This document shows positions 11,579 through 63,040 of a DNA stretch of 64,000 nucleotides, one piece after another. This DNA is from Cenococcum geophilum 1.58 (taxonomy: Eukaryota > Ascomycota > Dothideomycetes > Gloniales > Gloniaceae): positions 187,475 through 251,474 of the forward strand of contig KV748250.1 of assembly GCA_001692895.1 (NCBI GenBank). The letters are read 5' to 3'. A program made the position numbers and the translations under genes. The notes beneath the pieces were generated by a model. That model was given only the letters and a program-made list of their open reading frames with translations. It was not told where the DNA came from and searched no databases. How positions within the stretch are numbered: position 1 is the first letter of the stretch; each line of letters begins with the position of its first letter.

Positions 11579-11580
11579 AG

Positions 11581-11875
11581 CTCTAAAAGGTCGTATTATT
11601 TAATTTTAGCGTATTTATTATGCCGAAATCGGACTAAAGCTCTAAAAGGTAGTGTTATTTGATTTCGGCGTGTTTAGTATGCCGAAATCAGACTAAAGCT
11701 CAAGAAGGTCGTGTTATTTAATTTCAGCGTGTTTGTCATGCCGAAATCAGATTAAAGCTCTAAAAGGTCGTGTTATTTGATTTCGGCGTGTTTAGCATGC
11801 TGAAATCAGATTAAAGTTTTAAAAGGTCATGTTATTTAATTTCGGCGTGTTTATTATGCCGAAATCAAACTAAAG
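11581..11875. repeat. five tandem 59-bp units, each holding the 24-nt palindrome
   Basis: Units start at 11581, 11640, 11699, 11758 and 11817 (exact 59-bp period). Each reads CTCTAAAAGGTCGTGTTATTT, then a palindrome of the type GATTTCGGCGTG / TATGCCGAAATC, then AGACTAAAG. RIP-like differences separate the copies. The palindrome core is the motif that recurs singly through the rest of the window. The array lies immediately upstream of the minus-strand fragment ending at 11354. Confidence 0.95.
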
Positions 11876-12217
11876 CCCTTATAGTGTAACGGCTTATATA
11901 AATGCCTCTAAACCGAAGCTTATAGATTGCTATCTAATAAATATACTAAGCTAAGGAGAGGGAAGGGGGTTCGCTAGGGCTGGTATAAATAAATAAGTAG
12001 CGCAAGCCGTTAAGGCGCTAGTAGTAGGCGAGCTAATAGTAGAAAACAGTACTAGATAGTATTAATACGATAGGTAGTAGAATATAGCAGAACTTGGGTA
12101 GAATTTAGCAGGTGACGCGCTTTAGCACCGTCATATATAGGCTACTTTTAGTTTATCGTATCTCGTCTAACTTATGTCCGTAATTTGTTATACGTTAAGA
12201 TTAAGCGTCTTAATTAC
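11876..12217. other. intergenic, nothing recognised
   Basis: I see no frame, repeat or known element in this stretch. It separates the palindrome array from the MITE. Confidence 0.4.
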
Positions 12218-13112
12218 CTCGTGCACAGACCTACCTCGTGCACGGTTTTCCTCACTAAAATCTATCAAAATCTGCCTAAATATACCTTTTTATACCACCT
12301 ATAACTTAATAACCTTCCAGTAAAAGTCTATAAATTTTTCAATATGGCTTATTAAATACTAAAACCGTAATTTCATATAATAAAAATATTAAATATTATA
12401 AAATATTTATATTAAAAATAAAGTTAAAAAAGTACTTTTTTAATATAAAATAAAGTTAATAATAACAATAATAATAATAAAGTTACTATATAGCTATAGT
12501 ATATAAATAAGTCTTTTTAATATTTATTAAGTTTATTAATTATATTTTTNAATNACTTATATTAATATTTAATNNNTNNTAANNNTTNAATTTATATATT
12601 TATATTATAAATAAGTTTTTAATATTGTAGTCTAAACTTATAATATATTTTACTATAACTAAAATTAGTAATTAAAAATATAATATAGCCTATTATTATA
12701 TTTAATACAATATTTTCAAATTTTTACTATAGGTAAAAATAGAGCTTTTTAGTTTATATAATAATATTCTATATTTTTATATTTTTATATTATAAAAAGC
12801 TTAAATTACCATATAATAAACTATATTTTAATTTTCATATTAATAGCTTGTATGGTTATTTAGTTATAAGTATTTAAAAAATACTATATTTTGGTGTATT
12901 TTAGTACTCTAAATACATTAGTTGTGTATATAAGCTAATTAAGTTTTTTATTATATTTTTTATTATAAAACTATAGTTTTAGTATTTAATAAGCTATATT
13001 TAAATTTTTATAGAATTCTATTAGAAGGTTATTAAGTTATAGTGGTATAAAAAGGTATATTTGGGTAGATTTTGGTAAGGAAAACCGTATACGAGCCGGT
13101 CGCGTATACGAG
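12218..13112. mobile_element. MITE-like element with ~165-bp terminal inverted repeats
   Basis: The left arm (12218 to about 12395) and the reverse complement of the right arm (about 12948-13112) align along their length. Shared blocks are CTCGTRYACGGTTTTCCTYAC, AAATATACCTTTTT, ATAACTTAATAACCTTC and GCTTATTAAATACTAAAAC. The ends carry CTCGTGCAC twice, 17 bp apart (12218 and 12235), mirrored on the right by GTATACGAG twice. The interior (about 12400-12945) is extremely AT-rich, has a cluster of N calls and no coding frame. Long TIRs and no transposase fit a non-autonomous DNA transposon. I could not find a clean target-site duplication, so the superfamily is open. Confidence 0.8.
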
Positions 13113-13224
13113 CCGGCCGAGCCTTTTAGCGGCTAAGATATCCCTAATCTATACTTAATATAAGAAAGCTAAATCGATACAGATAGTCACGATTGTTTAA
13201 CAGTAATATCTATAGCAGTAAAAA

Positions 13225-13505
13225 TACTACTCTTTACTATATTAGGTTAAGTAGTAACAGGCCACTCGCAATTAATACCCCAAGTCTTTTTAAAGGACAC
13301 CCTATTCCTTAAATATTTCACAAAGCCTTTGCTTATAAGCGTCGTTAATAGGCCTGTTTACGCTAATAGTCTATACTAGCGTAAGAGAATTAATTGGGAA
13401 CTTTGCTGTTATTAGCTAATATGGCCTAGCCTGGTTATATATTAAATCCACCTCCTTTAGGTAGGAAGCTTTCGACCTAGGCCCTAAAGCCGCTGCTTCT
13501 TATCC
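13225..13505 (-). pseudogene. unrecognised coding remnant
   Basis: A single minus-strand frame of about 95 codons, with six TAA/TAG codons only, contains ALGPRSKASYLKEVDLIYN, INSLTLV-TISVNRPINDA, YKQRLCEIFKE and LRVACYYLT. Amino-acid use is ordinary for a soluble protein, and in-frame TGA is absent, so this is probably real decayed coding DNA. I cannot assign a family. Its upstream side holds the 13649-13933 minisatellite and then the palindrome at 14046, in the same arrangement as other minus-strand remnants here. Confidence 0.4.
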
Positions 13506-14028: not shown

Positions 14029-14156
14029 TAACGACTCGCGACTTAGTTTTAGCATGTTAACATACTAAACCCTTTTTATTTTTTTACTAATACCACCTTA
14101 ATTCCCTATAGGGAGCAATTGATGCAAGGTTTATAGCCTAATAGTAACTATAGTGC
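14029..14156. promoter_or_regulatory. palindrome copy within a 128-bp block shared with 50500-50628
   Basis: The palindrome GTTTTAGCATG/TTAACATACTAAAC is at 14046-14070. Unlike most copies, its flanks are also conserved: ACTCGCGACTT before it, and TTTTTACTAATACCAC, then ATTCCCTATAGGGAGCAATT after it, reappear in the same order and orientation around the copy at 50516. In both places the block lies on the upstream side of a minus-strand remnant, which argues for a duplicated promoter segment. Confidence 0.7.
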
Positions 14157-20187: not shown

Positions 20188-20212
20188 ATTTCGGCATATT
20201 AACATGCCAAAC
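20188..20212. repeat. 24-nt palindrome copy
   Basis: The sequence is AATTTCGGCATA followed by its near reverse complement, TTAACATGCCAAAC. It is one of the best preserved copies. It lies about 200 bp before the coding-like stretch that leads into the FunK1 pseudogene (+). Confidence 0.85.
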
Positions 20213-20399: not shown

Positions 20400-21300
20400 A
20401 CCGCTAATAGGGCGGCTTCCTCTATGCGTGGGCTTTGGTACATTATTAGAGCAGAGTGCGATTGGACCTATACTTTTAATAAAGTCTAGAATTTCCCTAA
20501 CCTAGCCGGCTTTACTAGAATGCAACCATATAAGGTTGCGCGATATTTATACCGGTATAGTAGCCGCTATATATAACGTAGAGGGTCACGCTAAGAGGAC
20601 GTAATACCTTTTAAATATTAAGGTAGGACGTCTAACAAAGTAATATAGGTCTATAGCTGCACTAATTACTAGGCTGCTTATTGCATAGCGCGTATACCTC
20701 GCTTACCGTAGTTTTATATGGGAAATTCGCTTATTACTTAGTAAAAGGTTAGTTAGTTTACTAAGTAACGTATCCTATTACTACAAAATAAAGTAGCGCG
20801 ATAATTAACCTTATATCGCTATTAGTTGCTATAAGCTCTTCTATATAGACTTATTATGCCGTAGTAGAAACTAGTAAAGGTAAAAATATAATAAAAACAC
20901 TTTTATACGTTTAATATACTAACCAGAGTATAGAAATATAAAGGCCGAAATTACAACCAATTAAGGTATAAGAAGAGAACTAAGAGTTTAACTAGTTTTT
21001 GCTAATAGTATATATCGCAAGCAATACTAATAATAACAACCCTACTACTTAGGCTATAACTAAAAGCCACTCTAGCATCTGCCGAGCAGTTAGATATTTT
21101 ATACAACTTATTAAACTTACTTCTCAGCTAATATACAGATAAGCCACCTATAGAAAAGCCCCTTAGGAATAAGCCATCTCTAAAAGAGCCCCTCATAGGC
21201 AATATTAGTAATCTCAATTAATATACCAATAAACAATCTATAGAAGAGACCTCTGTGGATCTATATAGCAATATTAGGAAAAAGGGCAATATTATCAATC
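20400..21300 (+). pseudogene. coding-like remnant upstream of the FunK1 kinase, unassigned
   Basis: Plus-strand frames with TAA/TAG interruptions are visible, for example NKVI-VYSCTNY-AAYCIARI near 20640-20700 and SSAIINLISLLVAISSSI near 20790-20845. I could not decide between two overlapping frames. It may be the N-terminal half of the kinase gene or a separate gene. No motif is recognised. Confidence 0.3.
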
Positions 21301-23640
21301 CGATTATATCTATAAGAATGCCCTACCGCTCTAAAAACGTAGCTAAATATATAGGCTACACCAACGAAAAATACAATTACATCACCTCCTTACTCGACGC
21401 CATTTAATATAGTAAGTAGCTTATTAATCAGCAACAATGCCAAGCTTCGCCGGTTTCCTATAGTTGCTAACCTCGCCTACCGGTCCTATATCTCGTTAAC
21501 GCTATTAAATACATTTATAGAAGACATTCTAAAAGTTACGTAAAAGTACGTAGATAATCTTTATAAGAAGGACGAGTGGAAAACCTTTATAGGAAGCTGC
21601 ACAGGTGGAAAGAAGAGTAATTTATCTATATATAAATCGTCTTCTAACTTAAACAAAGAGGAATTTAAGGCAGTTATATAATGTATCACAAATTTAGACG
21701 GCCTAGGGGAGTACTTTAAAAAACCTAAAGCTAATAATCCCCGTTGGGGTTATATTAAAATATCTTACTAGGGAAATTCCCTAATAAAGACTTAGAACAC
21801 CAAAGCAAGATAGCTAAAAGGGAATTACGGCAGTATAGTAAGGTAGAAGGAGTTAAAGCCAAATCTTATAACTATAGTTATTAAGGATATAGAATTATAG
21901 CGACCTTGCGAAACTTAACCGAAATTTATTTAACTCGCTAAGCCGTAGACAATATTACCCCCTCCTAATAGCTAGAAACCCGCGCCGATAGATAATAAGT
22001 ATTTCCCTATAGTGAAGTATAGAGAGCCGGTTTAGGAATGCCTTAATATGCTTTAGGAATATAAACGCAATTCCTAGGATTTAAAGAATACTAAGGTATA
22101 TCTTAACTGTGCTTTAAAAGCTACTAAGGCGCTTCGCTATCAATAAAGCCGAAGATACATTTACTGTTTTCTATACTATAGATTAATAATATAGCTCTTA
22201 TATTTTAATTAGTTAGGTCTTATAGTAAGTAAGCTACTAGATATCTAAATAGATACAGCTAAGTTTATCTAATGCCTGCTTAAAGCATTTTATTATAAAC
22301 CTAGTAGGCTTAAATACCCTGCTAGGAAAAAGGCGCCATTCTATAAATATAATCTAGACAACAGACTATTTTAAGTAGTTACTATAGATAGTCAATAACT
22401 ATATATTAACGATTAGGAGGCAAGGCCACCTAAAGATCATCTTATTAGTTATATAACTATGGCCTTTAAAGCAAAACTCGTTAACCCTAAAGAAAAGGAA
22501 AAAATAGGCTAGGACTGGTGCTATAAGAGTAGCTAGCCTTAAGAGCTTTGGAAATATAAAGGGCACTACCTCTTAAGCCTCCAAAACCAGCCTAATATAG
22601 TAGAGTTACTTACCTACGGTGTTATTAAGGTTAAGAACAAGAATAACACTATAGTTTTTAGGCAATAGTGTTCTTCTAGGCAACTAATAACCTTTCTTAA
22701 AACTTTTTACGATAGGGCTAAGGTCTAAAGACCTAACTTTACCTAGTATACTAGGAGTGCAATTTCTATCTTAGAAGATTTAACGGCTTTACTATACGAT
22801 CTAAAACGACCTAAAGGTAGATTATAGCAGGACTGCGATAATAGGGAACATAGAGATATTATCACTACTTAGGTCAGCTCGTCCTTTAATAATGCTATTT
22901 CTTTATTAGATTCCTTACCAATAATATCCTTAATCTAGCAACAGGCCTTTTTAGCTATTAAAGTAATGGCTAAGAGGGGTATAGTTTATAGGGACATTTT
23001 ATTTATAAATATTAGGATCGATAATTAACACAAGCTAAAGGTTTGCGACTTAGATATAGCGGCGTCTATTAATAATTAAGGTATAGGAGCATAGGATAGA
23101 ACTAGCACAGTTACTTTTATAGCTACTTTATTATTAAGCAAATCTTCTACACCATTTACACATCGACTAATCTATAATTGCGAATCTATTTTCTAGCTCT
23201 ATACTATTAACCTACTAAGTAGAGTTAGTATTAGAGACATTAAAGAGAACCTTATAACTATTATAAACCCTAGCGCGGGTATTAACTTAGTAAGGAGTGT
23301 AAAGAGGGAAGTTGTTATACAGTTAGGTAATTTTAAGAGAAAAACACAGCGGCTTAAGGCTTACGCTTCTTTGAATACGCTAAAGGATTTATTATTATTC
23401 TTTTGTCTCACCAAGCTTATAAGGGAATTCGCTAGTAATAACTACATTAATGACTATAAAAGTGCGGAAGAGGGAACTAAAAATATCTACTTCAACTACT
23501 GTATTGAAATTATTAAACGAGCTTTTAATTTAGGCGTTGAATAAGCTATAGAGGGGATTACTAAAATATCACTTTCCCTTTAAGCATCTAGCTAGTGTCT
23601 ATTTAGAATTAAGGAGCTAAGGGATTTAGAGGCTTTTTAT
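21300..23640 (+). pseudogene. FunK1-type fungal protein kinase, RIP-degenerate
   Basis: This matches FunK1 (fungal-specific kinase-like proteins) in block order. The N-terminal region has NLAYRSYISLTLLNTFIEDI and DNLYKKDEWKTFIGS (about 21465-21590). A FunK1 signature block follows: LNCALKATKALRY, then RRYIYCFLYYRLII-LLYFN (about 22110-22220), matching the family pattern RxxxHGFxxxGxxMxLxxFDR. Next come the middle lobe (KIGQDWCYKSS, LWKYKGHYLLSL) and the catalytic loop GIVYRDILFINIRID (22979-23026), where family HRD reads YRD. The metal-binding segment KVCDLDIAAS is at 23038-23070. The C-lobe continues to LFFCLTKLIREFASNNYI near 23440. The catalytic His to Tyr change and the many stops make it inactive. 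Confidence 0.8.
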
Positions 23641-24058: not shown

Positions 24059-24143
24059 ATTTTAGCATATTAATATACTAAAAGACGTTGGTTTTAGCAT
24101 ATCGATATACTAGGGGAAATTTCNGCATATTAANATGCNAAAA
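24059..24143. repeat. three clustered palindrome copies
   Basis: Copies lie at about 24059-24083 (ATTTTAGCATAT...), 24090-24113 (GTTTTAGCATAT...) and 24118-24143 (ATTTCNGCATAT...), about 30 bp apart and linked by AAAGACGTTG / AAAGAAGTTG. They sit between the 3' ends of the two convergent kinase pseudogenes, so this array, unlike most copies, is not in a 5' region. Confidence 0.85.
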
Positions 24144-28084: not shown

Positions 28085-28109
28085 TTTTGGTATACTATTA
28101 TACCGAAAC
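28085..28109. repeat. 24-nt palindrome copy
   Basis: TTTTGGTATACT is followed by ATTATACCGAAAC. With the copy at 28387 it brackets a 300-bp unit holding a 12-bp minisatellite. Confidence 0.8.
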
Positions 28110-28386: not shown

Positions 28387-28412
28387 ATTTCGGCATGTTA
28401 TTATACCAAAAC
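28387..28412. repeat. 24-nt palindrome copy
   Basis: ATTTCGGCATGTT is followed by ATTATACCAAAAC. The left half is unmutated, the right half carries CpA to TpA changes. Confidence 0.85.
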
Positions 28413-29519
28413 CCCCTATACTTAACCCTAATAATTAGTAACTTTCTTATTATACCGCTTATTTATTGCCTATGCTTATCTAACGGCTATATAACCAGGC
28501 GTTAGCTCTATAATTACTTCTCTATAATTATCTCTACCGCTATTAGGAATAGCTGCTCTTAATTTTCCTAGCTATTAAGTATTGGTATATAGTTATCCTA
28601 AAACCGTATAACGCGACTTAACTTTTATAATCCGCATTAATTGGCGTGTTTTCTTAACATTATCTTCGCCTGTTATTACTAAGAATTATACTAAATAACA
28701 CTTTTACCCCTTAGTAGAACCTATAATATATATAAAAAGGCTATTATATTAGTAAATTAGGCCCGGTATATACGAACTATTTATTTAGAATCTATTATCT
28801 TACGGACGATTAAAGGCGAACAATATTGGTACGAAAAATGCAACTCTTTGTATCGCGGAGTTAGAAGGCTAGGCGTAACCGTCTTTGCTATAGCAACGCT
28901 AGCAGTAGTTTTCTTTAGTACTTAAATATATCTAGGGGTCTATCGACCTGTTACTTACTACCTACCTAGTAGCAATTTGTCGTCGTTAGCATTTTCGTCA
29001 GCCCGTAACTAATATCTACCTATAATTTACCTATCTTATATATATATAGTCTCTTTTCTTTATAGATCAATCTATATATAAGTCCTTCTTTTCTAACCTA
29101 GTTTTTAGTAGTCGCTAGGGTCACAAATAGAAACTAGCTTTAAGCGTTAGTGGGATTAATATATAGAAAGCATATAAAACTAGTAATCTATCTAGAGTGG
29201 AGCCAATTTAGCGCATTTAGCTAGAGCTAATTTGCATTAACTATACATCCTATGATTTAATTGGTGGTATAGAGTGGATTTTAAGGCTTTAGAGCTCTTA
29301 GAGCGCTAGCCGTATATCTAATTAAAAGAAGGTGGCTATGGGAAGGGTTAATAAGGCGTTAGAGCATAATGTTAAGCTAATTAGTAGAGCTATATAATAA
29401 CTCGCTTTTCTAGAATATAAGCATTCCCTATACGATCTATAAAGTCTACTTATTTCCTTTCCTTCCTACTCTCTTTCCTATATACTTAATTACTTAGTAA
29501 CTTAATTTTATCTCCCTTA
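28413..29519. other. intergenic; left arm of a dispersed inverted repeat near 29245-29320
   Basis: No coding frame is convincing. The segment around GAGTGGATTTTAAGGC and TAGAGCTCTTAGAGC (about 29270-29315) matches the reverse complement of about 39485-39560 (GTGTGGATTAAACC, TAGAGCTCCTAGAGCTC). The two lie 10.3 kb apart in inverse orientation. They may be duplicated promoter segments or the ends of a large element. Confidence 0.45.
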
Positions 29520-31340
29520 ATTACTATAGAGCGATTCTTTCCTATGCGCGCTGCCGCGCCTACTAATAACGTTATCCTTATACCAAAATTAATTAATCTA
29601 AAGGCCGACAACTCTAAGGAAGTTAACAAGTTTCGGCTCTATGGTAGACAGTATATTTGATATAAATCTCTTATAAAGTAGCCGAAGTATACTAAGCAAC
29701 GAACATTACCAATCTAGCGGCGGGGTTTAAAGAAGAAGAGATTGGTTTTAGGGAAAAGCCTACGCCTAGCGGTGGGGTAGTAGTTATTAAGGATAATAAG
29801 ATTACGGAGGAAGGTAATAAGGAAACTAATAAGCAAATCTAACGATCTTCCCTAGTAAGTTTAAACGCCTCCTACCCCCTAAATAAAATACCGAAGTTAT
29901 GCTAAGACTTACTATAAGTAGTATATATCTACACTAGAGCTTTATAGCGCTCCTAAAGTCAAATCGTCCTTTTAGTAAATAGAGTGGATTTAACCTTAGA
30001 ACTACGCTACTACTTTAGTCCAAATAGATTACTGCGTAAAACTATAAGCGGTAAAGAATAAAGTATATACGCATATATGTAAACAGATTAACAAATTATA
30101 AAATACGAATTTAAGACTAGGCTAAGAGCTACCTAATTATAGGCTTATATTAGAGAACTGCAAACTAAAAGAACCCCTATTATTTAATAAGTACAATATA
30201 TAGACTAGAAGGATTATAAGTACGACGACTTACGCCGTTAGAGATACGTTGTCTGCTTCTAAAGGTTAGCAGCCTAAAGTGCCACTTATTATACCAGCCG
30301 TGCTAAAGCCTAACACCAACGATGCGGCTTAAAGAGTATTTCGCCTATCTCTTAACTAAACCCACTATTGGCGTATATAAATGCCTGGTAAATATACCGG
30401 CATATAGTATATTAAGAGACTTAAAGGAGATAAACTAGAGTAAAAAGCGTATAGAATACTAGCTCGTAGACCTATCTTCCTATATAGCCTTTTAGATTTG
30501 CGGCAAAGCTAGTGTCTTCTTATTGCCTTATATAGATTATAACTATTACTGCGAAAGAGGGATAGAAGCTAGATAATATGGCCATGGTAATAAAAAGCCG
30601 AATTTTATAAGCAGGCGAGGAACGATAAAGTTATGCTAGAAATATCCTTGTCCGCAATATACTTAGGGTAAGGTAATAATATAATACAATCTAGGGAGGT
30701 AATTTACGCCCCTTATTTAATTACTAGTGTGCTTATATCTAGTACTATAAGTTAGGATTCTAAGACAATATTGCAAGTTATACGTTAATTAATACTTAAA
30801 CTATATTATTTAAAGATAACAAACGAAGATCTAATAAAAGAATTTGGGGTAAAACTTTAAAGTATTAAACGGCTATAGAGTATAAGGTATTAAGCATGGC
30901 CGTAAAATTCTAAGGAGAAATTAAACAAGTTCTCGGCTTTGCTTAAGGTATATCTAGCTTTAACCCTACCCTATAATGCCTTTATTCCTATTTAACTAAA
31001 TTATATAGTCTAGGAAGTACGTTCTAATATAACGCTTTAAGAAATAGAATAGCGAGCTATATGGATTGGAAAGCTGCAACTACTAAATAGGCTGTAGTTT
31101 AAATAGGTGCGCTTATATAAGAGCTATAAAATAGTCTAGATTAGTTTACTATACTAAATACAACTATTTAGAAGCATATTAAAACATACTATAAGTAAAT
31201 AAGGGTTGTTTTAGTATATAAACATCTAAAGAGCGCCAATGTTTTAATAAGTACTACGTTGCTATATTTATTATTTGCGTTCCCGTTATATTAAATATAA
31301 TCGCTATATATTACGTTAGCCTTTAATATAAAATCCCCAC
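29520..31340 (+). pseudogene. unrecognised degenerate gene, plus strand
   Basis: Coding-like frames start near 29555 (NNVILIPKLINLKADNSKEV, KFRLYGRQYI) and go on through TIGVYKCLVNIPAYSILRDL, KEIN-SKKRIEY-LVDLSSY (about 30360-30485) and FQICGKASVFLLPYIDYNYY (about 30495-30550). After that come KPNFISRRGTIKLC and KYPCP-YT-GK, a Cys-bearing segment. Several frame changes and many TAA/TAG codons are present. The Cys spacing could once have bound zinc, but I cannot name a domain. It converges on the minus-strand family-1 remnant at 31380. Confidence 0.4.
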
Positions 31341-31379
31341 AATAAACCCTCTCCATACTATAGTAACTTTAAAAAAAAT

Positions 31380-33060: not shown

Positions 33061-33334
33061 AGCTATATTACAAGCCGCCAATATAACAGCAATAGGGAAG
33101 AAAACGCCTTAGTATAGACTACTAGTAGCAGTAAATAAGGGCCTAGAGGTAGAGTTAGTAGGTTAAATACTTCGTAAAGGACCTATAGGAAGGCATTATT
33201 GGATTATTTTAACTTTATTAACGGAAGGTCTATACACCTACCTTATTCTAGTTAGAATAAAACGATTATATAATTACCGCGCCAATCCTCTAAGCTACGT
33301 AAAATATAATTATAGCATTAGTACTAGTATATTA

Positions 33335-33409
33335 ATTTTAGTATATTAACATACTTAAATATTATATACAGTAGGAGGATATTATTTTAGCATATTTATA
33401 TACTAAAAG
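33335..33409. repeat. two palindrome copies upstream of family-1 copy H
   Basis: ATTTTAGTATATT/AACATACTTAAAT is at 33335-33360 and ATTTTAGCATAT/TTATATACTAAAAG at 33384-33409, 49 bp apart. They lie upstream of the minus-strand family-1 copy. Confidence 0.85.
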
Positions 33410-43330: not shown

Positions 43331-43546
43331 TGACTAGATCTACTATTATAAAGAGCGGCAGCATTAAAAGTATAAGCTAGGTTAAAGAAATAAGCTTAGC
43401 TTTAAAGCGGATATTAAAGGAAGTAATAGGTTTAAAAAAGGTGGTAGGGGAAAATTTAAATGGGCAATATTGTTATAAGTGTTATTAAAAACTTAGTGGG
43501 GTTACTATTAATAACAGGCCTACCTAACTTCTGCTGTCCGACCTCC

Positions 43547-43570
43547 TTTTAGCATATTAACACGCCAAAA
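43547..43570. repeat. 24-nt palindrome copy upstream of family-1 copy A
   Basis: TTTTAGCATATT is followed by AACACGCCAAAA, about 215 bp upstream of the family-1 copy A frame. Confidence 0.85.
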
Positions 43571-48245: not shown

Positions 48246-48247
48246 TG

Positions 48248-48350: not shown

Positions 48351-48429
48351 CCTCCCACCTATACCTTTTTCTTTAGTTATATATTTTAGGCTTTATAAAT
48401 AGATACTATAGCGATATACTTACGCACAG

Positions 48430-48580: not shown

Positions 48581-48606
48581 ATTTAGGCATATTAGCATGC
48601 TAAAAC
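48581..48606. repeat. 24-nt palindrome copy at the DIRS element edge
   Basis: ATTTAGGCATATT is followed by AGCATGCTAAAAC. It lies on the 3' side of family-1 copy B. Confidence 0.85.
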
Positions 48607-48717: not shown

Positions 48718-50390
48718 TACAAATCCACCTCTATTATATTCGCATTCTCTGCCTCTACAGCCTCTAATTCCTTAGCATCCTTAAGTAGGCTATTTATAAA
48801 TATTTTGCTAGTGGTCTTAATCTCCTAGACCCTAAAAGGCTGACCAATAATTAACGGCTAATAGATAATATTGTTAACAATTTAGCAGAGCTCTTGTAAG
48901 ACGGGTGCCTTTTAGTTTAGGATTAAATAGACCTTAGCCAAGACCAGAGTATTGAAATTTTGTAAACTTGCAGCCATTAGCACTATGCTTATTTATTTAC
49001 TAGGTGCTAACTTACTTATAAAGCCCGCCTATAGGTATTACTAGAACAATTCCAGTGCCAAATTCGTCTATTAATACTTAGACAACCTTCCCGCTTTATA
49101 CTTTATTAAAGAGTATAGTTTAAGTATATCTAAGCTTATTACAGATATACTTATTAACGGCAGTCTTTTAGCCTTGTCTAATATTAGTACCATAGCCCTA
49201 AGTCTTAAGTTCCTCCAGTAGTCTCTTCTTCTTTTCCTTCCCTATTATAGTTAGCTTTTTAGTAAATACCTTGGCAATAAGCTTTATATAAGCTTCTGCT
49301 AAATCCTTAAGCGTGCGAAGGTAGTAGATTTGCTAGATAATGCTATTATTTGGTCTACTGGCCCTAGTAATAGCTCCTATAGTTACGAAAAAGTATTTAA
49401 GGGTAGTATGCTTAGTGTTCTTTACTACCTTATCGGCTCTTTTAGAAATTCCCTTATCTGGTTTACCGTTACTATACTTATTATATAACTGTATAAGTAA
49501 AGAAAGACGACTAAGTGCTGGCCTGCCCATAATCTAACTAAAGAAGAAGTTTGTAATATTAACGGCTTCTTCTTCCGTAATCTCCTTAATAATGTTTTTA
49601 TTATTTTTCCTTATCTTAACTATTAGACCGTAAACTGCTGCAAAGAACTTATCTTTTATAGTAGTAATATTATTAACGTTTTAGTTATTGGAGATATCTA
49701 GTATAATTAGAAGAAGTTTCTTCTCCTTTATCTAGGAGACTTTTATGGTAGCTTTCTTTGTATTTAAACCCCTAGCTTCTTATTTTACTAGAGCATTATC
49801 TCTATGTTTAGCTTCCTTTCCTTATTCTGCTAACGCATTACCTTTATATCTATCTCCCTCCTTTCTTATAGTTTCTTCTTAGTCTATAGCTTCTCCCTTC
49901 TTGGCTTCCTTAAGAAAATTTAAAATGTCATCGTCCATATTATCTTTAACCTCCTCCTCCTCTACTTTATCCTCGGTAGAATTATTATACCCGCTATTAA
50001 TATAGTTCTTATTACCGGCTTCGACCTCCGCTATATCCTATAACGAGCCTATAGTAGTAGCTGTTGCGGTACTAGAGAATTAATTAGTTATACTTTTTGG
50101 CTTTTCCTTAATTCCATCGAGATACCTATTAATTATTTAAATTATAATATTAGTTTGCGTAGGATTATCCTAAGCTTAAAGGACCTTATCTATACGGCCG
50201 ATTTACTAAGGATATATTAGGAGGTATATTTTAGTCTAGTAAATTAAAAAGCCTTACTTTAAGTATTATATCCTTAATGGCTGGCGTTGCTAGTACCTTA
50301 AGCGGAATAGACTTATTCTTTAGGGTAACTAAATTAGCTATTACAAAGAGCGGCCACGTTAAAAGTAGTAGGCTCGCTTAAAGAATAACA
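48718..50390 (-). pseudogene. family-1 protein, copy B
   Basis: A minus-strand paralogue of copies A and C. The stop is at 48718-48720 after ENANIIEVDL. The C-terminal block has LIIG-PFRV-EIKTTSKIF and INSLLKDAKELEAVEAENAN (about 48850-48725). The stretch around 49330-49535 reads ITNFFFS-like then MGRPALSRLSLLI-LYNKYSN, GKPDKGISKRADKVVKNTK and LKYFFVTIGAITRASRP, equivalent to copy A's IIGKLALSRLSLLI and LKHFFKTIKKS. An acidic linker lies near 49900-50000. The plus-strand frame 49340-49537 is its mirror. N-terminal residues fade near 50390. Upstream is the palindrome at 50516 inside the block shared with 14029-14156. Confidence 0.55.
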
Positions 50391-50515: not shown

Positions 50516-50541
50516 GCTTTCGGCATATTAATATACCGAAC
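50516..50541. promoter_or_regulatory. palindrome upstream of family-1 copy B, in the shared 128-bp block
   Basis: GCTTTCGGCATA is followed by TTAATATACCGAAC. The flanks ACTCGCGACTT and ACTAATACCACTT, then ATTCCCTATAGGGAGCAATT, match those at 14029-14156. Confidence 0.7.
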
Positions 50542-50926: not shown

Positions 50927-52450
50927 CTATAAATCCACCTCTATCTTATCTGCGCTCTTTACTTCATCGGCATCCTTAAGTAGGGTTATTAGAAGTACCT
51001 TACCGGTAATCTTAATCTCTTAAATCCTAAGGGGTTGGCCTATAACCATCGGCTAATAGACCGTTTTGCCTATAATATTGCTAAGCTCTATTATAAACCG
51101 TGCCTTCTTAAGCAATATTAGATAAACTTGGGCTATAACCTACGCTCCAAACCGTTGCAGTCTCGCAACTATTAGTATTTACTTACTCTTAAGAAGGCGT
51201 TAACTTATACGGCTATACCATTTCCGGGTATTACTATAATAATTCTAGCGCTAAAGTGGTTAACTAATAACCGAAGTGCCTTTCTGCCCTAGATTCTGTT
51301 GTCTAGTGCATTCCTATTAATAATAAGTTCGTGACAAATATAGTCTATAAGCGCCGTTTTCAGCCCTTTTCCTTTCTTAGTTTTAAAACCCTTTTTTAAA
51401 AGTTCGTTTTCTAACGCTATATTTAATACTCTTTACCTTTTTAAAATCTTCTTCTCCGTTACTTTTGTTATAAGCTCTAAGTATATAACTGCAAGTTCTA
51501 TATATATATAATTAACGTAAATTTAGTATATAACGCTATTACTACTTCCTAAAGATCTTACAACATTCCCTATAGTTTTGAAGAACTTCTTAAGCTTAGG
51601 GTTTTTAGTATTTTCTGCCGCTATATCCGCTCTCTTAAAAACAGCTCTATTGTCCCTATCCGCGTCCTTTTTATTATATAAGGATACTAAGGAGCTTAAG
51701 CGTTACAGTGCCGGCTTGCCTATAGTGTGGTAAAAGAAGAACTTAGTAATATTAACCGCCTTTTTATTACTTATATCTATTAATTCGGCCTTATTATCCC
51801 TTATAATAGTAAAATAAACCTCTTAAATAGCTGTAAAGAAATTATCTCTTACTTCCGTAATATGCTTGACGCTATAAGCTTTAGTAAGACTATATATAAT
51901 AAAAAGGAGGACTTTTCCTACTAAAGATGTAATGATAACCAGCGTATATAGACTTTTAATACTCTCCTTAAGTTCTTTATACTTCCTAGAATTAAAATAT
52001 CTTAGATTGCTAACTGGATTATAACTAGGTTCCTATTTTAAGGGTTCTTTAGCTACCTCCGCACTATTATGCTAGTTACTAGCGTGCTCTAAACTATAAT
52101 CGCCTACTATTATAGTATCTATTATAGCAACTATTTTCGCTCTAGAGGCTTTATCTACCTCTTCTTCGCTCTTTTTCTTTAGAATATTAAGGTATATTCT
52201 AAAGAGGCGGATATAGTATATATATTATACCGGGTCATTATAAAAATCTTCTAAAAGTTTAGATATTCCCCTAAGGAGCTAAGCGCGTATTAGTAAGCGG
52301 TTTTGGATTTACTTTATTATAAGGACCTACTTTAACTACTACTTCTCCAATAGTAGGCGTTGGCGGAACTTTATATAAAATGGACTTGTTTTTTAAGATA
52401 ACTAAATCTGTTATTATAGAGAGTGGCTAGGTTAAAAGAAGTTGGCTAGG
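50927..52450 (-). pseudogene. family-1 protein, copy C
   Basis: The stop is at 50927-50929 after SADKIEVDL. The C-terminal segment PMVIG-PLRI-EIKITGKVL, then LITLLKDADEVKSADKIEVD (about 51060-50930), parallels copies A and B. The core near 51720-51760 corresponds to TKFFF-HTIGK-ALxRL, and a Lys-rich middle is present (about 51400-51480). It lies head-to-tail with copy B and is separated from it by about 390 bp including one palindrome. More frame changes are visible than in copy A. Function unknown. Confidence 0.5.
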
Positions 52451-52598: not shown

Positions 52599-52623
52599 TT
52601 TCAGTATAATAATATGCTAAAAC
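52599..52623. repeat. 24-nt palindrome copy upstream of family-1 copy C
   Basis: TTTCAGTATAAT is followed by AATATGCTAAAAC, about 150 bp upstream of the copy C frame. Confidence 0.8.
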
Positions 52624-52699: not shown

Positions 52700-53600
52700 A
52701 TATAACTTTAGGTAAGTCCTAAGGGATATTATACGGTATCGCATCTATAGAGTTACTAACTTCGCGACTTAGTATAAAAAGTAAAGGATAGTTCTGTTTA
52801 TGTATAGTATATTAGTCTACACTATAACGAGAATAATTCATGTTAATAATTAGGTGGTCTTTTNGCATGTATATATATCGAAACTACTACTACTATTAAA
52901 AAGTTATATAGGTTTGCTAAGACAGCTACCTAGGTATTTAGAGCCCACTAATCTTAACTCGCAATACGTGCTATTGCCTTTCCCGCCTCTAATTTATCTG
53001 CTTTACCCGGCGCTGTTTATTTAGTCTATTGCTTAATAATAATAACTCTACCTAATCCTTTTGCTTTCTCTTAGGCTTAGATGGAAAAGAAGTAGTAGTA
53101 ATTAGCTAGTCTACCTACTTCTTAAGCTCTATAATGTTATCGTGCTTCTTTTATATGGCAGGCTTTTTGTCTTTAGTGTAATCTTTAGACTGCGGGTCGG
53201 ACTATAGGTTAGATTATAAGTCCACACCTTTTAAGTCAGCCTTTAGGCTATAGAGAACTAATAGGGTATTAGTATAAGTGTAGGCATCTATAACTATGCG
53301 ACTTACTATTATTAATGACCTTAAGGATAGCCCGCTTCTTAAATTCCATTAGCGTCTTTATAGCGAGTTTAACCTAGTATAAGTTAATAAAATAAGGGTG
53401 ATTTGTCTAAATAGAGTAATGGCGCTTACTTATATTTCCGTACGGACTTTCTTCTTGCTTTTTTCCTTCTTATTATCGCGTTCCGGAAAAAGTGCTATAA
53501 TAGTATTAGCATTATTCCAAATTAGCATCGTATATACAATACTCACTGTCCCTAACTATATTAAGCATATAATAGCCACTATATTAAAATAAATCTTTAG
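52700..53600 (-). pseudogene. family-2 protein, copy D
   Basis: The minus-strand remnant starts near 53600 (YMLNIVRDSEYCIYDANLE, about 53575-53520). It passes through a frame-shifted Lys-rich stretch (DNKKEKSKKKVRTEI) to the family-2 core LYQVKLAIKTLMEFKKRAIL, then KVINNSKSHSYRCLHLY (about 53385-53275). The rest reads through KLEAGKAIARIAS-D-WALNT near 52990-52930. The core LYQxK(L/F)xxKALxE(F/Y)xKRA-LKVVNN-K is shared with copies E, F and G. It is probably a shorter member lacking the long repeat region. The function is unknown. Palindromes lie at both ends (53873 and 52859). Confidence 0.5.
52859..52884. repeat. 24-nt palindrome copy
   Basis: CTTTTNGCATGT is followed by ATATATATCGAAAC (one N). 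It matches the copy at 56016 in the duplicated unit. Confidence 0.75.
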
Positions 53601-53872: not shown

Positions 53873-53898
53873 ATTTTAGTATATTTTTATATTAAAAG
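53873..53898. repeat. 24-nt palindrome copy upstream of family-2 copy D
   Basis: ATTTTAGTATAT is followed by TTTTATATTAAAAG, a heavily mutated form. The paired copy is at 57022. Confidence 0.75.
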
Positions 53899-53974
53899 TA
53901 TATTAGCTCCAGCTAGGCTCTTTCTAGTTAACGCGCTTCGCCTATTTTCTGCAGCCTTAATAGGTATAGATACG

Positions 53975-54000
53975 CTTTTAGCATATTTCTATGCTAGAAT
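53975..54000. repeat. 24-nt palindrome copy
   Basis: CTTTTAGCATAT is followed by TTCTATGCTAGAAT. The equivalent site in unit 2 (57117-57140) is barely recognisable. Confidence 0.7.
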
Positions 54001-55260: not shown

Positions 55261-55720
55261 TTTCTTAGCATTAAGAAACCCTTTAGTGGGCTCCTTAAAG
55301 TATATTAACTTATCTAGGTATATAGCTAGAGGGTATTAGTGTCGCTCCAATACTATAAATTTGTAAAACCTACCCTAGGTAATCCTATAAAGGACTATCC
55401 GCCNACNGAATTCCATTNTCTCCTNAATAGAAAGCTTTAGCTNTTATTNGTTAGTAGTACNAATCTAATTAGTTTTAATAATGTTACGTACTTACCTGCT
55501 CCTTTACTTGGTCCCTTATTACACTAAAGCGTTTTAGTAGTTATAAAGATGGTAAGGAAAGTAGTATATATAAGCCTTCTTTAAGGTAGCTATTTTAGTT
55601 ACTATAAAACAAGTAGAGGAGAAGAGTGGAGTTTTTAAGACAGTGGTCGCGTCGCGGAGGTTGTTTTAATTGTCCTATAAAAGGTAGCTAATAAACTTTA
55701 GTGCCTACCGCTAATAACCC

Positions 55721-55744
55721 TTTAGCATAATATTATGCCAAAAT
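55721..55744. repeat. 24-nt palindrome copy upstream of family-2 copy G
   Basis: TTTAGCATAATA is followed by TTATGCCAAAAT. Confidence 0.8.
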
Positions 55745-55929: not shown

Positions 55930-56790
55930 CATAAAAAGTAAAGGATAGTTCTATTCGTGCGCATTATATTAGTCTATACTGTAACTAGAATAATTTATAT
56001 TAATAATTAGGTAGTCTTTTAGTATATAAATATACCGAAACTATAACTACTATTAAAAAGTTATATAGGTTCGCTATAACAGCTACCTAGGTATTTAGAG
56101 CCCACTAATTTTAACTTCTTATATTCATAATACGTGCCATTATCTTTCCTACCCCTAATTTATCTGCTTCGCCCGGCGCTGTTTATTTAGTCTATTACTT
56201 AGTAATAATAACTCTACCTAATCTTTTTATTTTCTTTTGGGATTGGCTAGAAAAGGACTAGCAGCAGTTCCCTTCTCCTTAAGCTCTACGATATCATTAG
56301 TCTGCGTTAGTACAGCATACTTTTTATTAAGCTCCGTATAGCTATCTAGCTTCTTCCTTAATGTGAGCCTTTTAGCTTTACTAGTTTTAGACTATAGGCT
56401 CGCGCTTTCTAAGTTAGCCTCTAGGCTGTAGAGAACTAATAGGGTATTAGCATAAGGTATAGGCATCTATAATTGTAACTTACTATTGTTAATAACCTTA
56501 AGGACGGCCTATTTCTTAAATCTTATTAAAGTTTCTATAGTGAGTTTAACCTAATATAAGTTAGTAGAAAGGGTAATTGGTCTAAGCAATAGCTTCTACT
56601 TTTACTTATACCTGAAACTTTTCCCTATTATACTTCTCCTTCTTATTATTAAGTTCCGGAAAAAGAACTACAAGTATATTAGCGTTATTCTATCGCAGTA
56701 ATAAATATATAGAACTTACTATTTATAATTACGTTAAGCATATAAAGACCACTATATTAAAATAAATCTTCAGTAGTAAGCGTCAGCTAT
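55930..56790 (-). pseudogene. family-2 protein, copy E
   Basis: Counterpart of copy D in the second duplication unit. The minus-strand frame gives VLFPELNNKKEKYNREKF-V (about 56680-56620), then NLYQVKLTIETLIRFKK-AV and LKVINNSKL-L-MPIPYANT (about 56560-56450), and LLVLYSLEANLESASL-SK. A coiled-coil-like stretch follows, LRKKLDSYTELNKKYAVLT and NDIVELKEKGTAASPF (about 56375-56255). Compared with D it keeps a longer uninterrupted frame after the core. It ends near a segment rich in LLLLSNRLNK. Flanking palindromes are at 57022 (5') and 56016 (3'). Confidence 0.5.
56016..56041. repeat. 24-nt palindrome copy
   Basis: CTTTTAGTATAT is followed by AAATATACCGAAAC, the unit-2 equivalent of 52859. Confidence 0.8.
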
Positions 56791-57021: not shown

Positions 57022-57047
57022 ATTTTAGTATATTTTTATATTAAAAG
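57022..57047. repeat. 24-nt palindrome copy upstream of family-2 copy E
   Basis: ATTTTAGTATAT is followed by TTTTATATTAAAAG, identical in form to 53873. A very decayed second copy follows at 57117-57140. Confidence 0.75.
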
Positions 57048-58759: not shown

Positions 58760-58786
58760 ATTTTAGTATATAATTATACTGAAAAT
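58760..58786. promoter_or_regulatory. palindrome between family-2 copy F and the sirtuin gene
   Basis: ATTTTAGTATATA is followed by ATTATACTGAAAAT. It lies about 400 bp upstream of copy F (minus) and about 275 bp upstream of the sirtuin frame (plus). Confidence 0.65.
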
Positions 58787-59034
58787 AGGAAGTTCTTACT
58801 AGGCTGCCTTAAGTCTAGCGCGCCTGGTGCATTCTACGCGAAAACATTTACAGATAATATAAGACTTTAAATTATTCCTTTATTATAATATTCTCCTTTA
58901 TATATCCTTTTTATAAGAGTAGTATATCCCCTAGAGAAGCTTCTAGTTATAATACTAGCTTACTAGCTAGAAAGAAAGGCATAGTAAAGTCTATATCGCG
59001 GACGACTAAATACCTTAATTTGCAACATAGGGGG

Positions 59035-60240
59035 TTTAATACCGCTTAGAGAATCCAACTTAACTAACTTCTTAACGTTTTGTATAAAAAGCGTAGGATT
59101 ATCGCACTTATTGGTGCGGGTATATCTATATCCGCCAGAAGTACGTTAATCCTAGATAAATACCATTTTTACTCTGCATAGCTAACTTTCTAAATAGTTC
59201 CTAATTTCTAATCCACAGCTAGGCTATTTAACACTCTTAGTAATAGGCCCTTTTAGATATCTTTAGGAAAGGATCTCTTTGATACTTCTATGTATTACAA
59301 CGACGTCTTTACCTCCTCTTTCTACAATATATTACGAACCCTCTTGGTAAGCGCAAGGTCAGCAAAACTAACTACCTTTTATTATTTACTTGCGACTTTA
59401 GCTCACGATGGCCGTCTATTATAATTATACTCCTAGAACGTTAATGGAATTAACACTATAATAGAACCGTTAAGGACTAAGGTGCCTTTGCTAAAGAAAA
59501 CACCTTAGCTAAAGACTATTTAGCTTTATAGATACGTTAGGGAGATAGTCTACTTAAAGTGCTATAGGGTTTCTAATTTCCAAGCCGAGCTTTTTAATAG
59601 GCCTATTTAACCTATATGCGCAGACTATAAGGATAACAATAAGTTTTATGTAAAAGCCGGTAAACGGAGCCATGGTGTTAGAAATCTTCGTCCTTAGATA
59701 GTATTATATAATGGACAGAATCCTAATAATAAGGCAATTGGATTTATTATTGTGTCTAACCTAAGAGCAAGGCTAGATACTTTTATTATTACTAGCATAA
59801 CATTAAAGGTTCTAGGTGTAAGAAGGATTGTTAGGGAAATATGCAGGCTGGTAAGGGACTAGGTAGGTAGTATTACTATTTAGATTAGTAAAGAAGCAGC
59901 ACCTAAGGGTAAGGACTTTAAAAACTGCTGAGATCTAGTCATAAGGGGGTCCTATAATGAGGTTGCTTAATATACTATAATGCGTAGGTGGGATTAAGAG
60001 CTAGAATATAGTGAAACTAAATACGGAAACGCTAAGGTTAGGTCAGTCTTATTAGAAAGCGTAAAAGTACCTAAACGCAAACAGCGGCAATTATTACTCT
60101 CCCCTTTAAGTCTCAAGATCCCTTAAAAAGTGACTAGAAGTAAGAGAAGAAATCCTAAGGTGTCTACCGGATCGGACACCCTTAAAGTTAAAAAGGTGGT
60201 TAGAAAGCGGCAGGTTTAAATACTACAGAGTATTATAGAC
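59035..60240 (+). pseudogene. sirtuin (Hst3/Hst4-like NAD-dependent deacetylase), inactivated
   Basis: A class I sirtuin homologue. The NAD-binding start RRIIALIGAGISISARSTLI (59092-59152) keeps GAGIS but not the usual PDFR. LFDTSMYYNDVFTSSFYNIL (about 59275-59340) and TTFYYLLATLAHDGRLL follow, then YS-NVNGI (about 59428-59450; family TQNxD). The catalytic His segment TI-LYRYVREIVYLKCYRV (59515-59571) has Tyr for His at 59527-59529. Zinc ligands are half lost (YLKC and CADY for two CxxC pairs). The block KRSHGVRNLRPQIVLYNG, then NPNNKAIGFIIVSNLRARL (about 59655-59780), and VLGVRRIVREICRLVRD (about 59810-59860) match fungal Hst3/Hst4-type proteins. A long basic C-terminal tail follows. RIP stops are present. 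Confidence 0.85.
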
Positions 60241-60970
60241 ATTATTAATAAAGCTCTTAGATATAATGTAAGATAGATATAGGATAGGAATTTTAGCATA
60301 GTGGCGGTTTAGAAGGACGTGATTACTCTAGGCGTACTTAAGCGTAGTCGTTTGGTGCTATCTTAGATAGAGTTATTAAATAAGATACGTTTTCAAGTAT
60401 ATTCAATATATTAGAGTAAGGAACTTAATTATTTTATATCTATTTTATAAGCAAAAGAAAGACTAAGCTAGAGCAGCAAATTAAAGTATCTATAGTCTCG
60501 CCTCTAAAAGAAAGTCATTAACGCAATCCTTATCTTTAATACTAAAATACTTACTAAATATTTGTGGCAAGCATTTTTATATCAATTCTAAAGGACAGGA
60601 TTAATAAGCATAAGGCTGTTTAGAAAATGAGATTAGGGGATATATACTATAGGTAAGATCTAAAGCTTAATTTTATAAAACAAAAAAGGCTAGTAAAAGA
60701 AATAGCCTAGAACTATAATGCTATATATTTATCTTTAACTAATCTCTATATAAAAGCTTGTAGGCATTCTGGTATAAGTAAGGTCTATATAAGCGACGCT
60801 TTCCGTAATGTTGTTAGTAGGGAACTGTAGAAGCTTTATAAGATAGACCGCTTCTTTTAGATAATTAAGGAGTAGGTAGATAGCGTAGATATAGCGACTT
60901 ATAAGGCGAAGCGATATTAAGCGGAAAGGCGACTATAGTTAACTAAAGCGGGTTTATAGGACCAAATCCT
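60241..60970 (+). pseudogene. possible C-terminal extension of the sirtuin gene
   Basis: A plus-strand coding-like frame continues past the deacetylase: INKALRYNVRQIQDRNFSIV and VITLGVLKRSRLVLS (about 60245-60370), then a shift and AIYLSLTNLYIKACRHSGIS, KVYISDAFRNVVSRELQKLY (about 60720-60845), IIKEQVDSVDIATYKAKRY. It is helical and basic with no recognised domain. It may belong to the sirtuin protein or be a second gene. It converges on the minus-strand gene ending near 61060. Confidence 0.35.
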
Positions 60971-61059
60971 ATGTTAATATCCTTACCGGTTATATACTAA
61001 AATGTAGCCACGTTAACTCTGGGTATAGTTAGCTTATTTAGTATTAGTTTTAACTAGAA

Positions 61060-62861
61060 GGCACCGCTTATATCTTATTGCACTTAAAACCTATATACTG
61101 AATATTACCTGCTTTCTTAAAGCCGAAGTGTCGGAGAAATTTAGCGGTCTAGAGAATATCAGTGCTATTACCTATACTATACAGCACCTAGTAAATTATA
61201 GTCTTAATAATTCGGCTACCTATAGACCTAGATATATCTACTTTGGCTATCTACTTATATCCGGCCCTGGCCTAATACTTAATATCTATAAGATTTAACA
61301 TTTTGTCTATTAAGCAGCTATTAATTCCTTTATTATAGTAATCCGGGTAGGTAAAGATATCCAACTTAACTATATAGCGGTATATGCTTCTAGGGTAACA
61401 GAAATTATCGGCGTATATAAGACCTACTATTTTCTTAGGGATGTGGGTTACCCACGAGCTGTAAAGACCAGTATCTTTAGACCGATTAACCGCAACAATC
61501 CACGGCAGTCTATTTATTAGGATATTGGCAAGGCGGTTAATAAGATTCTATATTATACGCGGATTAAACTTAGGATAGTGTATAGTATTAGTAACATAAT
61601 AGTTGTAAAGATTAGTTATCTGGACAATATCTCTAAAATAGGTAGGGCAAAGATATACGTTCGCTTTAGGCTTTAGGCTCCTATTAATAGGTATAAAAGT
61701 TTTAGTAATTTCTAGGTAGTTACGCTTCCTCTAGAGCTTAAGCTGTTTTTTCTCAGCGGCGCTAAGCTTTTTTACATTCTTAGCCTTTTCGTATTTCTTT
61801 ATAGCGCCATTGCTTCCGAAGTCTTTAATTGCCAAGGCGTAGGTAAATTTAATAGTATCAAGCTTTGCTTTAGGGACGTTAATTAGTAGAAGAAGGGCGG
61901 AGGTAGCTAATATATAGGTCTCCCACTATAGCTACTTAGTAGGATCGTAATTAGATAACAGAGCTGGCGCTTATCCTTAGTATGTCCGCTAAAATAATTG
62001 TGGTAACTCTATATTAAGGGTAAATAGGATCTAAAAGCGTAGTGCAACCTTACCGTTGGTTTTAGCGACGAAAGTAGGATCGCTGATATCTATGTTTTCC
62101 TTACTTACCTTTTCCAACTTATTTATCTAAGCCTTAATACGGTTATAGAAATTACGGCCCAAAAATCCTCTATGGCCTTCCCATTCTACCAGAGCTAGGA
62201 GCCAGTTTCCCCCCTAATTAGTAATCTTTTTAATATAATAGGTAGGGTCCTAGTTACTATTTAACTTCAATAACACACTACTATCGTTATTACCACCCTT
62301 TATGGAAGTTTTTATATCCCGTTTTTTTGGCCATCTATAGCTTTTAGACGCTATAGGTCTGGTTATTACCTAAAACTCCGCATTCTTTATAGTGGTATAC
62401 TTTTTAGCGTTATAGCGAGGAGAAGATAATGCTGGCGTATTATTACCAATCCTAATAGTAATGCTAGTTGCTTACTTTATAAGCTTAGTACTAGTCTCTT
62501 AGACTTTATTAAGCGGATGCTATTACTAGCTAGGAATTTGGGGTAACTTAGGGAGGTTTTGTAATAATAGCTGTAGGGTAGCGGTTAGAAATACTTACTT
62601 TACTTTATATCTATATAATTATAAGTACTAGCTAGAAAGAATAGAAAGAAAACATAAGGCGTAGAAGTGAGATAATACGTTAAACACTTACTATAAGCGT
62701 TGCTTAACTTTTAATGGGCCATAATTAGTTAAGAAATATCTTAAGGCCGGACGGGTATAATTAGAAGCCACTATAGCTACTTTATTTATAGAAACTGAAA
62801 TAGGAGGCGGGTTGCATTTATAGCCTTCGCGAAGGTATAGAGGGACGTTTTTTAACGCCAT
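61060..62861 (-). pseudogene. large unrecognised gene, minus strand
   Basis: ATG at 62859-62861 opens MALKNVPLYLREGYKCNPPP and ISVSINKVAIVASNYTRPAL. The frame then runs about 600 codons with few interruptions: GNNTPALSSPRYNAKKYTTI (about 62450-62395), WLLALVEWEGHRGFLGRNFY (about 62205-62145) and IDISDPTFVAKTNGKVALRF. Next are AKKYEKAKNVKKLSAAEKKQ-like residues near 61800-61750, YLEITKTFIPINRSLKPKAN, VYLCPTYFRDIV, LPWIVAVNRSKDTGLYSSWV (about 61510-61455) and VTHIPKKIVGLIYADNFCYP. The length, moderate damage and mixed composition point to a real cytosolic or nuclear protein. I recognise no domain. It is convergent with the sirtuin gene, with a palindrome 155 bp upstream. Confidence 0.5.
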
Positions 62862-63016
62862 TTTAAAGTCTTTACGAATTCTCCAGCGCTTACATCTTAG
62901 GGCTTATTAGTAGGCAGTGTGATATAGTAGACTTAACAAAGAATTTTGTGTATAATTGTATGGAGAATTAGTTAATAGGTTAGGGGAGAAGGTAGACAAT
63001 TAGAGTAAGTTGGACC

Positions 63017-63040
63017 TTTTAGCATATAGACATGCCAAAA
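63017..63040. promoter_or_regulatory. palindrome upstream of the large minus-strand gene
   Basis: TTTTAGCATATA is followed by GACATGCCAAAA, 155 bp before the ATG at 62861. It is one of the better kept copies. Confidence 0.7.

Follow-up and report, generated by a model that had tools for sequence, protein, structure and literature searches.

A 24-bp palindrome as a probable upstream regulatory site in a giant repeated block of the Cenococcum geophilum genome

Results

Palindromes and gene remnants in the window

We analyzed a 64,000-nucleotide stretch of the genome of the ascomycete Cenococcum geophilum 1.58, called the window below, which corresponds to positions 187475-251474 of contig C75 (GenBank KV748250.1) in an assembly of 177.2 Mb and 162 contigs (labelled C1, C2 and so on). 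A first-pass annotation, made from the letters alone, had reported a 24-bp palindrome dispersed between unrelated gene remnants. A scan against the 24-mer that tolerated transitions (C/T, G/A), with one array of a different spacing left uncounted, confirmed this observation: the window holds 22 palindromes at ≤3 mismatches, whereas 20 first-order Markov shuffles yielded none at ≤3 and four at exactly 4. All 22 places annotated earlier are present, with coordinates accurate to 2 bp, but those at 24092 (5 mismatches), 52860 (4), and 53874, 53976 and 57023 (3 each) are weak. Three further sites, at 40519 (3 mismatches), 26800 and 38716 (4 each), had been missed. The tandem array at 11578..11876 (59-bp unit, 5.1 copies), previously counted as five copies, does carry palindromic arms in each unit, but these are separated by 7 bp instead of 6 and belong to another spacing class; a homologous array lies at C71:6314-6615, on a contig that carries a copy of most of the window.

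Many of the palindromes stand before recognizable genes. The one at 20189..20212 precedes a FunK1-type protein kinase remnant (20520..23580, plus strand), mapped to the window from its C71 counterpart (PF17667, 2.5e-12). Two, at 28085..28108 and 28388..28411, lie upstream of J1 (28701..32015, plus strand), which encodes a C2H2-like finger and was recognized by homology as a paralogue of J2 (C71:54.2-56.5k); a further stretch of J1 is cupin/JmjC-like by reading, which Pfam does not confirm. The pair at 33336..33359 and 33385..33408 is found 5' of a distant family-1 gene (31638..33196, minus strand), and the palindromes at 43547..43570, 50518..50541 and 52599..52622 are found 5' of family 1 genes A (41798..43346), B (49017..50341) and C (50933..52414), respectively, all on the minus strand and, like the distant gene, identified by homology. 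A sirtuin remnant (plus strand, extending at least over 58981..59505; the C71 fragment matches SIR2 PF02146 at 8e-6) is preceded by the palindrome at 58761..58784, and the last palindrome (63017..63040) is upstream of a minus-strand frame at 62034-62369.

Among the others, the palindrome at 14047..14070 (1 mismatch) has flanks in common with that at 50518, and three are clustered at 24060..24143 (24060, the weak 24092, and 24120, which contains ambiguous bases). No gene is assigned to 37126..37149, 40422..40445 (the weaker 40519 is its neighbor) or 55720..55743. The palindrome at 48582..48605 is preceded, ~8-14 bp away, by the end of a ~4.7-kb insertion that is missing from C71. The weak palindrome at 52860..52883 has a C71 counterpart (42093) 446 bp 5' of family 1 gene C, and the palindrome at 56017..56040 is within a stretch resembling the surroundings of 52860. 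Two weak palindromes (53874 and 53976, spanning 53874..53999) are near one copy of family 2, and another (57023..57046) is near the second copy.

The recognized genes in the C71 copy are all broken, and Pfam matches over the curated cut-off are limited to the kinase, a nucleoside triphosphatase (NTPase), DUF6570, OrsD and SIR2. In C71, family 1 comprises three tandem paralogues and one distant member, all on the minus strand, and family 2 has two copies; the same contig also holds the NTPase, which is of the STAND/NACHT type (8.9e-7). Two OrsD genes, one of which matches PF12013 at 5.9e-17, are present in stretch L039 of the small contig C155. A possible GNAT acetyltransferase fragment is seen in the window at 61275..61451 (minus strand; the C71 fragment matches PF13508 at 7.5e-4, below its cut-off). 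On opposite strands, the homology of J1 (plus) runs into that of the distant family-1 gene (minus) for ~380 bp (C71 25.5-26.0 kb; window ~31.6-32.0 kb), which reflects either a convergent overlap or one spurious match.

Copies of a giant repeated block

Sequence comparison within the assembly indicates that the window is one copy, altered by repeat-induced point mutation (RIP), of a giant repeated block. An 801-base segment of the kinase gene has 16 copies on 14 of the 162 contigs (87-100% identity), and a segment from the right side of the block (C71:77400-78400) has 21 matches, some of them partial. Among the matches listed, distances between successive palindromes are nearly equal on C41, C52 and C71 (60, 4167-4168, 267, 4978-4998, 7037, 7450, 3250-3274, 2744, 4256 and 1891-1903 bp), and C72 shares several of them, one differing by ~330 bp. 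The same order and near-identical spacing point to copies of one block. Furthermore, the start of C71 (L020-L027) is collinear with the window from 13126 to the window end at ~90-92% identity, one insertion and small indels aside.

Over these collinear stretches, 4192 transitions separate the window from C71, against only 14 transversions, and 2441 of the 3356 transitions with a readable neighbor fall in CpA/TpG. The first-pass annotation, which had described differences between palindromes as mostly TpG to TpA or CpA to TpA, was correct on this point, and the pattern is RIP-like. Divergence that is almost purely of this kind suggests that copying was recent relative to ordinary substitution, so that retention of the site across copies is uninformative on selection in this genome. 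Across the genome, the palindromes represent above all the copies of a single large block, a fact invisible from one window. What needs explaining is the presence of ~30 sites, many with unrelated flanks, inside one block.

Several observations concern the extent and insertions of the block. The copy on C72 stops at ~819 kb (L038:5045), at the counterpart of C71 74.43 kb; C71 and C41 stay alike further right, to ~79.9 and 78 kb, which leaves the block boundary unsettled. Near the right end of the block, AAAAAACCCTAAA-like runs recur in the units of an imperfect tandem repeat (L027:2300-4000, i.e. C71 72.3-74.0 kb). The ~4.7-kb insertion, at 43855-48567 in the window, has split direct repeats and a frame that is tyrosine-recombinase-like by eye; from its appearance we take it to be a DIRS/Ngaro-type element. 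At 12235-13095, an AT-rich stretch that resembles its own reverse complement (66%) is absent from C71 at that place and is likely a decayed insertion. Left of the collinear block, a 171-aa frame (2766-3278, plus strand) matches DUF6570 (5.5e-6). The window also contains a 257-bp tandem repeat of 2.9 copies (8449-9193) and a 24-bp/96-bp minisatellite that reads open on both strands (54549-54988).

Conserved arms, fixed spacing and independent flanks

The site conforms to the pattern TTTYRGYAT-N6-ATRCYRAAA, which has 291 matches in 177 Mb and none for the reversed control. With a 7-bp spacer there are 246 matches genome-wide (reversed control, 1), and with an 8-bp spacer there are none (control, 0). 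In C71, the 7-bp matches sit in 59/60-bp repeats, the sole exception being a weak match at 44423; they include a 60-bp array of 13 units at C71:57003-57747. A coding repeat was rejected for the arrays, as the 59-bp unit is no multiple of three.

Conservation is concentrated in the arms. Whereas an ancestral GGCATG-TTAA-CATGCC core had been proposed earlier, only the 9-bp arms are conserved and the 6-bp center is loose: it reads GTTAAC or ATTAAC in 10 of 30 C71 sites, and 20 other centers occur once each. In 37 C71 sites, information content amounts to 0.9-2 bits at arm positions, a value biased upward by the selection of these sites by their arms, and to 0.5-0.8 bits at the three middle positions of the center. 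Outside the palindrome (30 C71 sites) it is ≤0.29 bit at 36 of 40 flanking positions and 0.31, 0.44, 0.54 and 0.76 bit at the other four, compared with 0.52-2.0 bits inside. When CGG/CCG triplets were looked for, C was found at position 4 in 12 of the 37 C71 left arms, a count blurred by RIP; position 21 is A rather than G in 31 of 37, which means that a complete TGCCGA is found in only part of the arms. Sites are frequently paired, since nine of 29 distances between neighboring C71 sites are ≤320 bp.

The flanks are, as first reported, usually not conserved between copies, similarity fading beyond the 24 bp. Among 58 site pairs with a BLAST match spanning both palindromes, 30 share ≤40 bp, 14 share 41-100 bp and 14 share 116-724 bp, the longest stretches being duplicated gene stretches. 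In addition, direct duplications of ≥2 bp abut two of 30 sites, against 3.4 expected. With more than half of these pairs sharing so little, descent from one transposon family fails as an explanation, and the fading conservation, together with the lack of an excess of target-site duplications, shows that the palindrome is not simply a transposon end, as had been surmised. Separately, several copies of a ~140-bp dispersed repeat occur in the block, among them L036:985-1156, window 19494-19665 and L027:2971-3101; for some, a palindrome is no more than 100 bp away.

Position of the site relative to gene starts

To relate palindromes to start codons, family 1 starts were located via their common N terminus (M-x-DLV-x-x-KNKSI), and gaps were measured in the C71 copy between the ATG and the palindrome end closest to it. 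For family 1 genes A, B and C, the gaps are 201, 177 and 185 bp. For the distant family-1 gene, whose ATG is putative, two palindromes give gaps of 140 and 189 bp; J2 likewise has two, at 74 and 175 bp, and the sirtuin one, at 197 bp. Hence, at six of seven C71 starts there is a palindrome at a distance of 140-201 bp on the upstream side; at the seventh, the first ATG of the kinase frame, it is 308 bp away. Scored by intervals, six of seven starts have a site within 120-260 bp, an interval picked after the gaps were seen, and all seven within 0-350 bp; either mirror interval downstream contains none (0/7). Random circular shifts scored at least six in 34 of 20,000 cases. When all circular shifts of the 33 sites by ≥400 bp were considered, the best scores were 4/7 (120-260 bp) and 5/7 (0-350 bp), indicating that the high scores stem from shifts near zero. 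The 5' placement therefore holds for those few genes whose start could be determined.

This placement extends to OrsD genes. In L039, a palindrome is 211 bp upstream of the start of one OrsD gene, and on each of five contigs the distance from a strict site to the OrsD domain is 238 bp, a constancy expected of copies of one locus. The site is thus common to upstream regions of unrelated genes (family 1, J2, the sirtuin and OrsD), as first suggested. The earlier description of most copies as upstream of minus-strand genes was right as to the upstream position but not as to the strand, for both strands carry such genes. The three family 1 promoters align from the palindrome to the ATG and lose similarity beyond the palindrome, which is upstream of a pyrimidine-rich tract.

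Confinement and chromosomal location

Among the matches listed, the site is confined to certain contigs. Full listings of 36 strict and 39 exact-core matches (overlapping sets) place all of them on contigs with a copy of the kinase segment or OrsD. There are no strict or exact-core matches on contigs C1-C40, and the first contig among the N6/N7 matches listed is C41; on these grounds, a host-wide promoter motif was rejected. Of the 26 OrsD occurrences in the assembly, 12 share their contig with a kinase or right-hand segment, 11 are on seven small palindrome-bearing contigs and three are on C23 and C59. Family-1 matches are on contigs with a kinase copy in 59 of 60 cases, the exception being on C29. 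No site at ≤4 mismatches was found within the 2 kb read around this C29 relative, or within the 4 kb read around an intact OrsD gene on C23. The C29 sequence (L061; C29:815801-817800), with a G+C content of 42-52%, is related to the distant family-1 gene but carries far fewer mutations; by eye, similarity stops ~16 bp upstream of the position of the block copy's ATG, where C29 reads ATA. A search of the PDB with this relative gave no matches.

Nine contigs longer than 200 kb carry the kinase. On eight of them a copy lies no more than 100 kb from a contig end, always with the kinase pointing inwards; the copy on C15 is interior. C72 and C75 have two kinase copies each, 140 and 195 kb apart and in the same orientation. 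The telomere repeat (TTAGGG)4 was not found anywhere in the assembly by a search method that skips simple repeats. The assembly also appears not to be complete at the ends. The arrangement of kinase copies suggests that the block is probably subtelomeric. Of the large mobile or subtelomeric system suspected in the first pass, the large size, the repetition and the probable location near chromosome ends are supported.

Discussion

A probable promoter site serving one block

We consider it probable that the palindrome regulates, from upstream, the genes of a single giant repeated block, itself probably subtelomeric. Its most likely role is that of an operator or activating site where a dimeric DNA-binding protein would act, for this block alone. 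Such a dimer would contact both arms, TTTCGGCAT and ATGCCGAAA, across their fixed 6-bp separation, and once bound would drive or repress transcription, which probably begins at the pyrimidine-rich tract further downstream. The protein may be of the zinc-cluster type or carry a C2H2/OrsD-type finger, and might be encoded in the block itself; by analogy, a zinc-cluster-like dimer site is a reasonable description. If a dimeric factor binds the site as a promoter element, the position of the sites, their fixed spacing, their pairing and their unconserved flanks are all accounted for. The interpretation offered in the first pass is in part upheld: unrelated genes share a 5' site that is not the end of one transposon family, and this site belongs to a large repeated system. 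Considering that the recognized genes are broken in the copy read, regulation by the site is probably a relic in this genome.

Several points weigh against this reading. The start codons come from broken genes via frame and homology, and the readable ones, few in number, were chosen; three of the seven belong to paralogues and a fourth to their distant relative. The kinase gap of 308 bp, measured to an uncertain start, fits only loosely, and for the other (first) OrsD gene of L039 the sole candidate is degraded, with three arm mismatches, and is ~320 bp from the domain. Several palindromes have no assigned gene, the start of J1 could not be fixed, and the 7-bp-spacer arrays are left unexplained by a promoter-site model. 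For a zinc-cluster protein, the parts read (~60 kb of a copy being outside them) gave only low-complexity pattern matches. Finally, C155, the small OrsD contig that was read (L039), aligns with kinase-bearing copies only over short stretches; it likely lies in the same block, of which it may be a more distal part, or in a related segment.

Alternative explanations

An unlikely alternative is that the palindrome is a chromatin, silencing, replication or segregation site, the landing place of a block-specific chromosome protein. Copies both dispersed and arrayed within a repeated block, the 59/60-bp arrays of C71 reaching 13 units, and the presence of a sirtuin are in keeping with this, but neither the tight 5' placement, with no site in the mirror interval, nor the pairing of sites is.

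We regard as very unlikely that these are core sites of a site-specific recombinase, with the genes as exchangeable cassettes. Core sites of tyrosine recombinases consist of inverted arms around a 6-8-bp crossover region. The conserved 9-bp arms, variable 6-bp centers and strict spacing match this layout, a stretch after an OrsD gene looks tyrosine-recombinase-like (by eye and in broken frames only), and upstream of family 1 gene B the sequence is a patchwork whose joint lies near the palindrome. However, the recombinase-like stretch has no Pfam match. The insertion at 43855-48567, the sole large difference beside a site, ends short of the palindrome and resembles an element with split direct repeats. 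Moreover, site order is kept on C41, C52, C71 and C72, and spacing nearly so (among the matches listed, parts of few copies having been read), so that no cassette movement is seen, and promoters better explain the constant distance to the ATG.

Lower still in our estimate are footprints of transposition, or tiny hitchhiking elements resembling miniature inverted-repeat transposable elements (MITEs). The palindrome is indeed a short inverted repeat with many copies, and mimp MITEs sit in effector gene promoters of Fusarium (PMC3599309). But there is no internal region, little is conserved outside the 24 bp, and the distance to the ATG is constant; since abutting duplications are not in excess and, in many pairs, similarity is limited to the site, a transposon end or MITE was rejected. 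A eukaryotic integron-like system, in which an OrsD zinc-finger/recombinase-like protein of the block would exchange cassettes at sites doubling as promoter elements, seems to us highly improbable. The least probable reading, an RNA hairpin with a 9-bp stem and 6-nt loop in the 5' leader or as a 3'-end signal, accounts for a stem with a variable loop, but was rejected, as the same arm letters recur, one-sided transitions are commoner than the few pair-preserving changes (A-T for G-C at pair 5/20 in 3/30 sites; T-A for C-G at 7/18 in 2/30), and sites upstream of the pyrimidine-rich tract are probably outside the transcript.

If the palindrome is a promoter site of the block, a giant repeated block at chromosome ends would have its own regulatory code, in which one long palindrome is common to unrelated genes and, among the listings and sequences examined, is not found before ordinary genes. 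Such blocks could then act as transcriptionally self-contained units. The palindrome can serve as a direct bait for its regulator, and its sequence as a tag by which genes of such blocks can be recognized in other fungi.

Comparison with known systems

No described fungal subtelomeric palindrome of this kind was recognized in the literature consulted. Baculovirus hr regions are dispersed palindromes, some of them in tandem arrays. In contrast to these, no virus sign was met around the block palindromes, and a virus was rejected on finding no matches of the strict pattern in IMG/VR contigs, no search for a capsid or polymerase having been made.

Starship giant transposons are very large cargo-carrying segments in filamentous fungi (PMC11623301), and in this the block resembles them. 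No DUF3435 captain (PF11917) was present in C71 7-75 kb, C41 16-71 kb or C75 187-251 kb among the matches listed (100 of 346 candidates scored, with block ends unsettled). A DUF3435 match on C93 (306.4-307.4 kb), within the expected range of that copy, is perhaps a nested insertion. UTASb of Ustilago maydis has an OrsD domain, and the subtelomeric TLH/UTAS families are near telomeres (PMC10532341). The block is similar in having OrsD genes in repeated segments near what are probably chromosome ends, and differs in that no telomere repeat was found in this assembly, simple repeats being skipped by the search. No RecQ helicase turned up in general Pfam scans, none of which was aimed at RecQ.

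Ftf1/Ftf2 (aTf1/cTf1) are zinc-cluster regulators of effector promoters in Fusarium oxysporum; they are partly encoded on accessory chromosomes, and promoters of accessory regions are enriched for a short site (PMC5140021, PMC3599309). The ATGCCGAAA arm of the block site overlaps with the Tf1 site, T[AG]CCG, as well as with the effector motif AACTGCCGA. Unlike the Fusarium site, which is short and occurs many times genome-wide, the block site is a 24-bp inverted repeat with strict spacing, seen on certain contigs only. The overlap of half-sites is a lead rather than a sign of membership, no search for an Ftf homologue having been made. Finally, the CRJE of Pneumocystis is a conserved short element 5' of each member of a subtelomeric gene set (PMC10622565) and thus shares with the block site a 5' position across a gene set. 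It differs in lying at the gene start of one family, in being an imperfect mirror repeat and in probably acting as a recombination junction, whereas the block site is an inverted repeat ~200 bp upstream, common to unrelated families.

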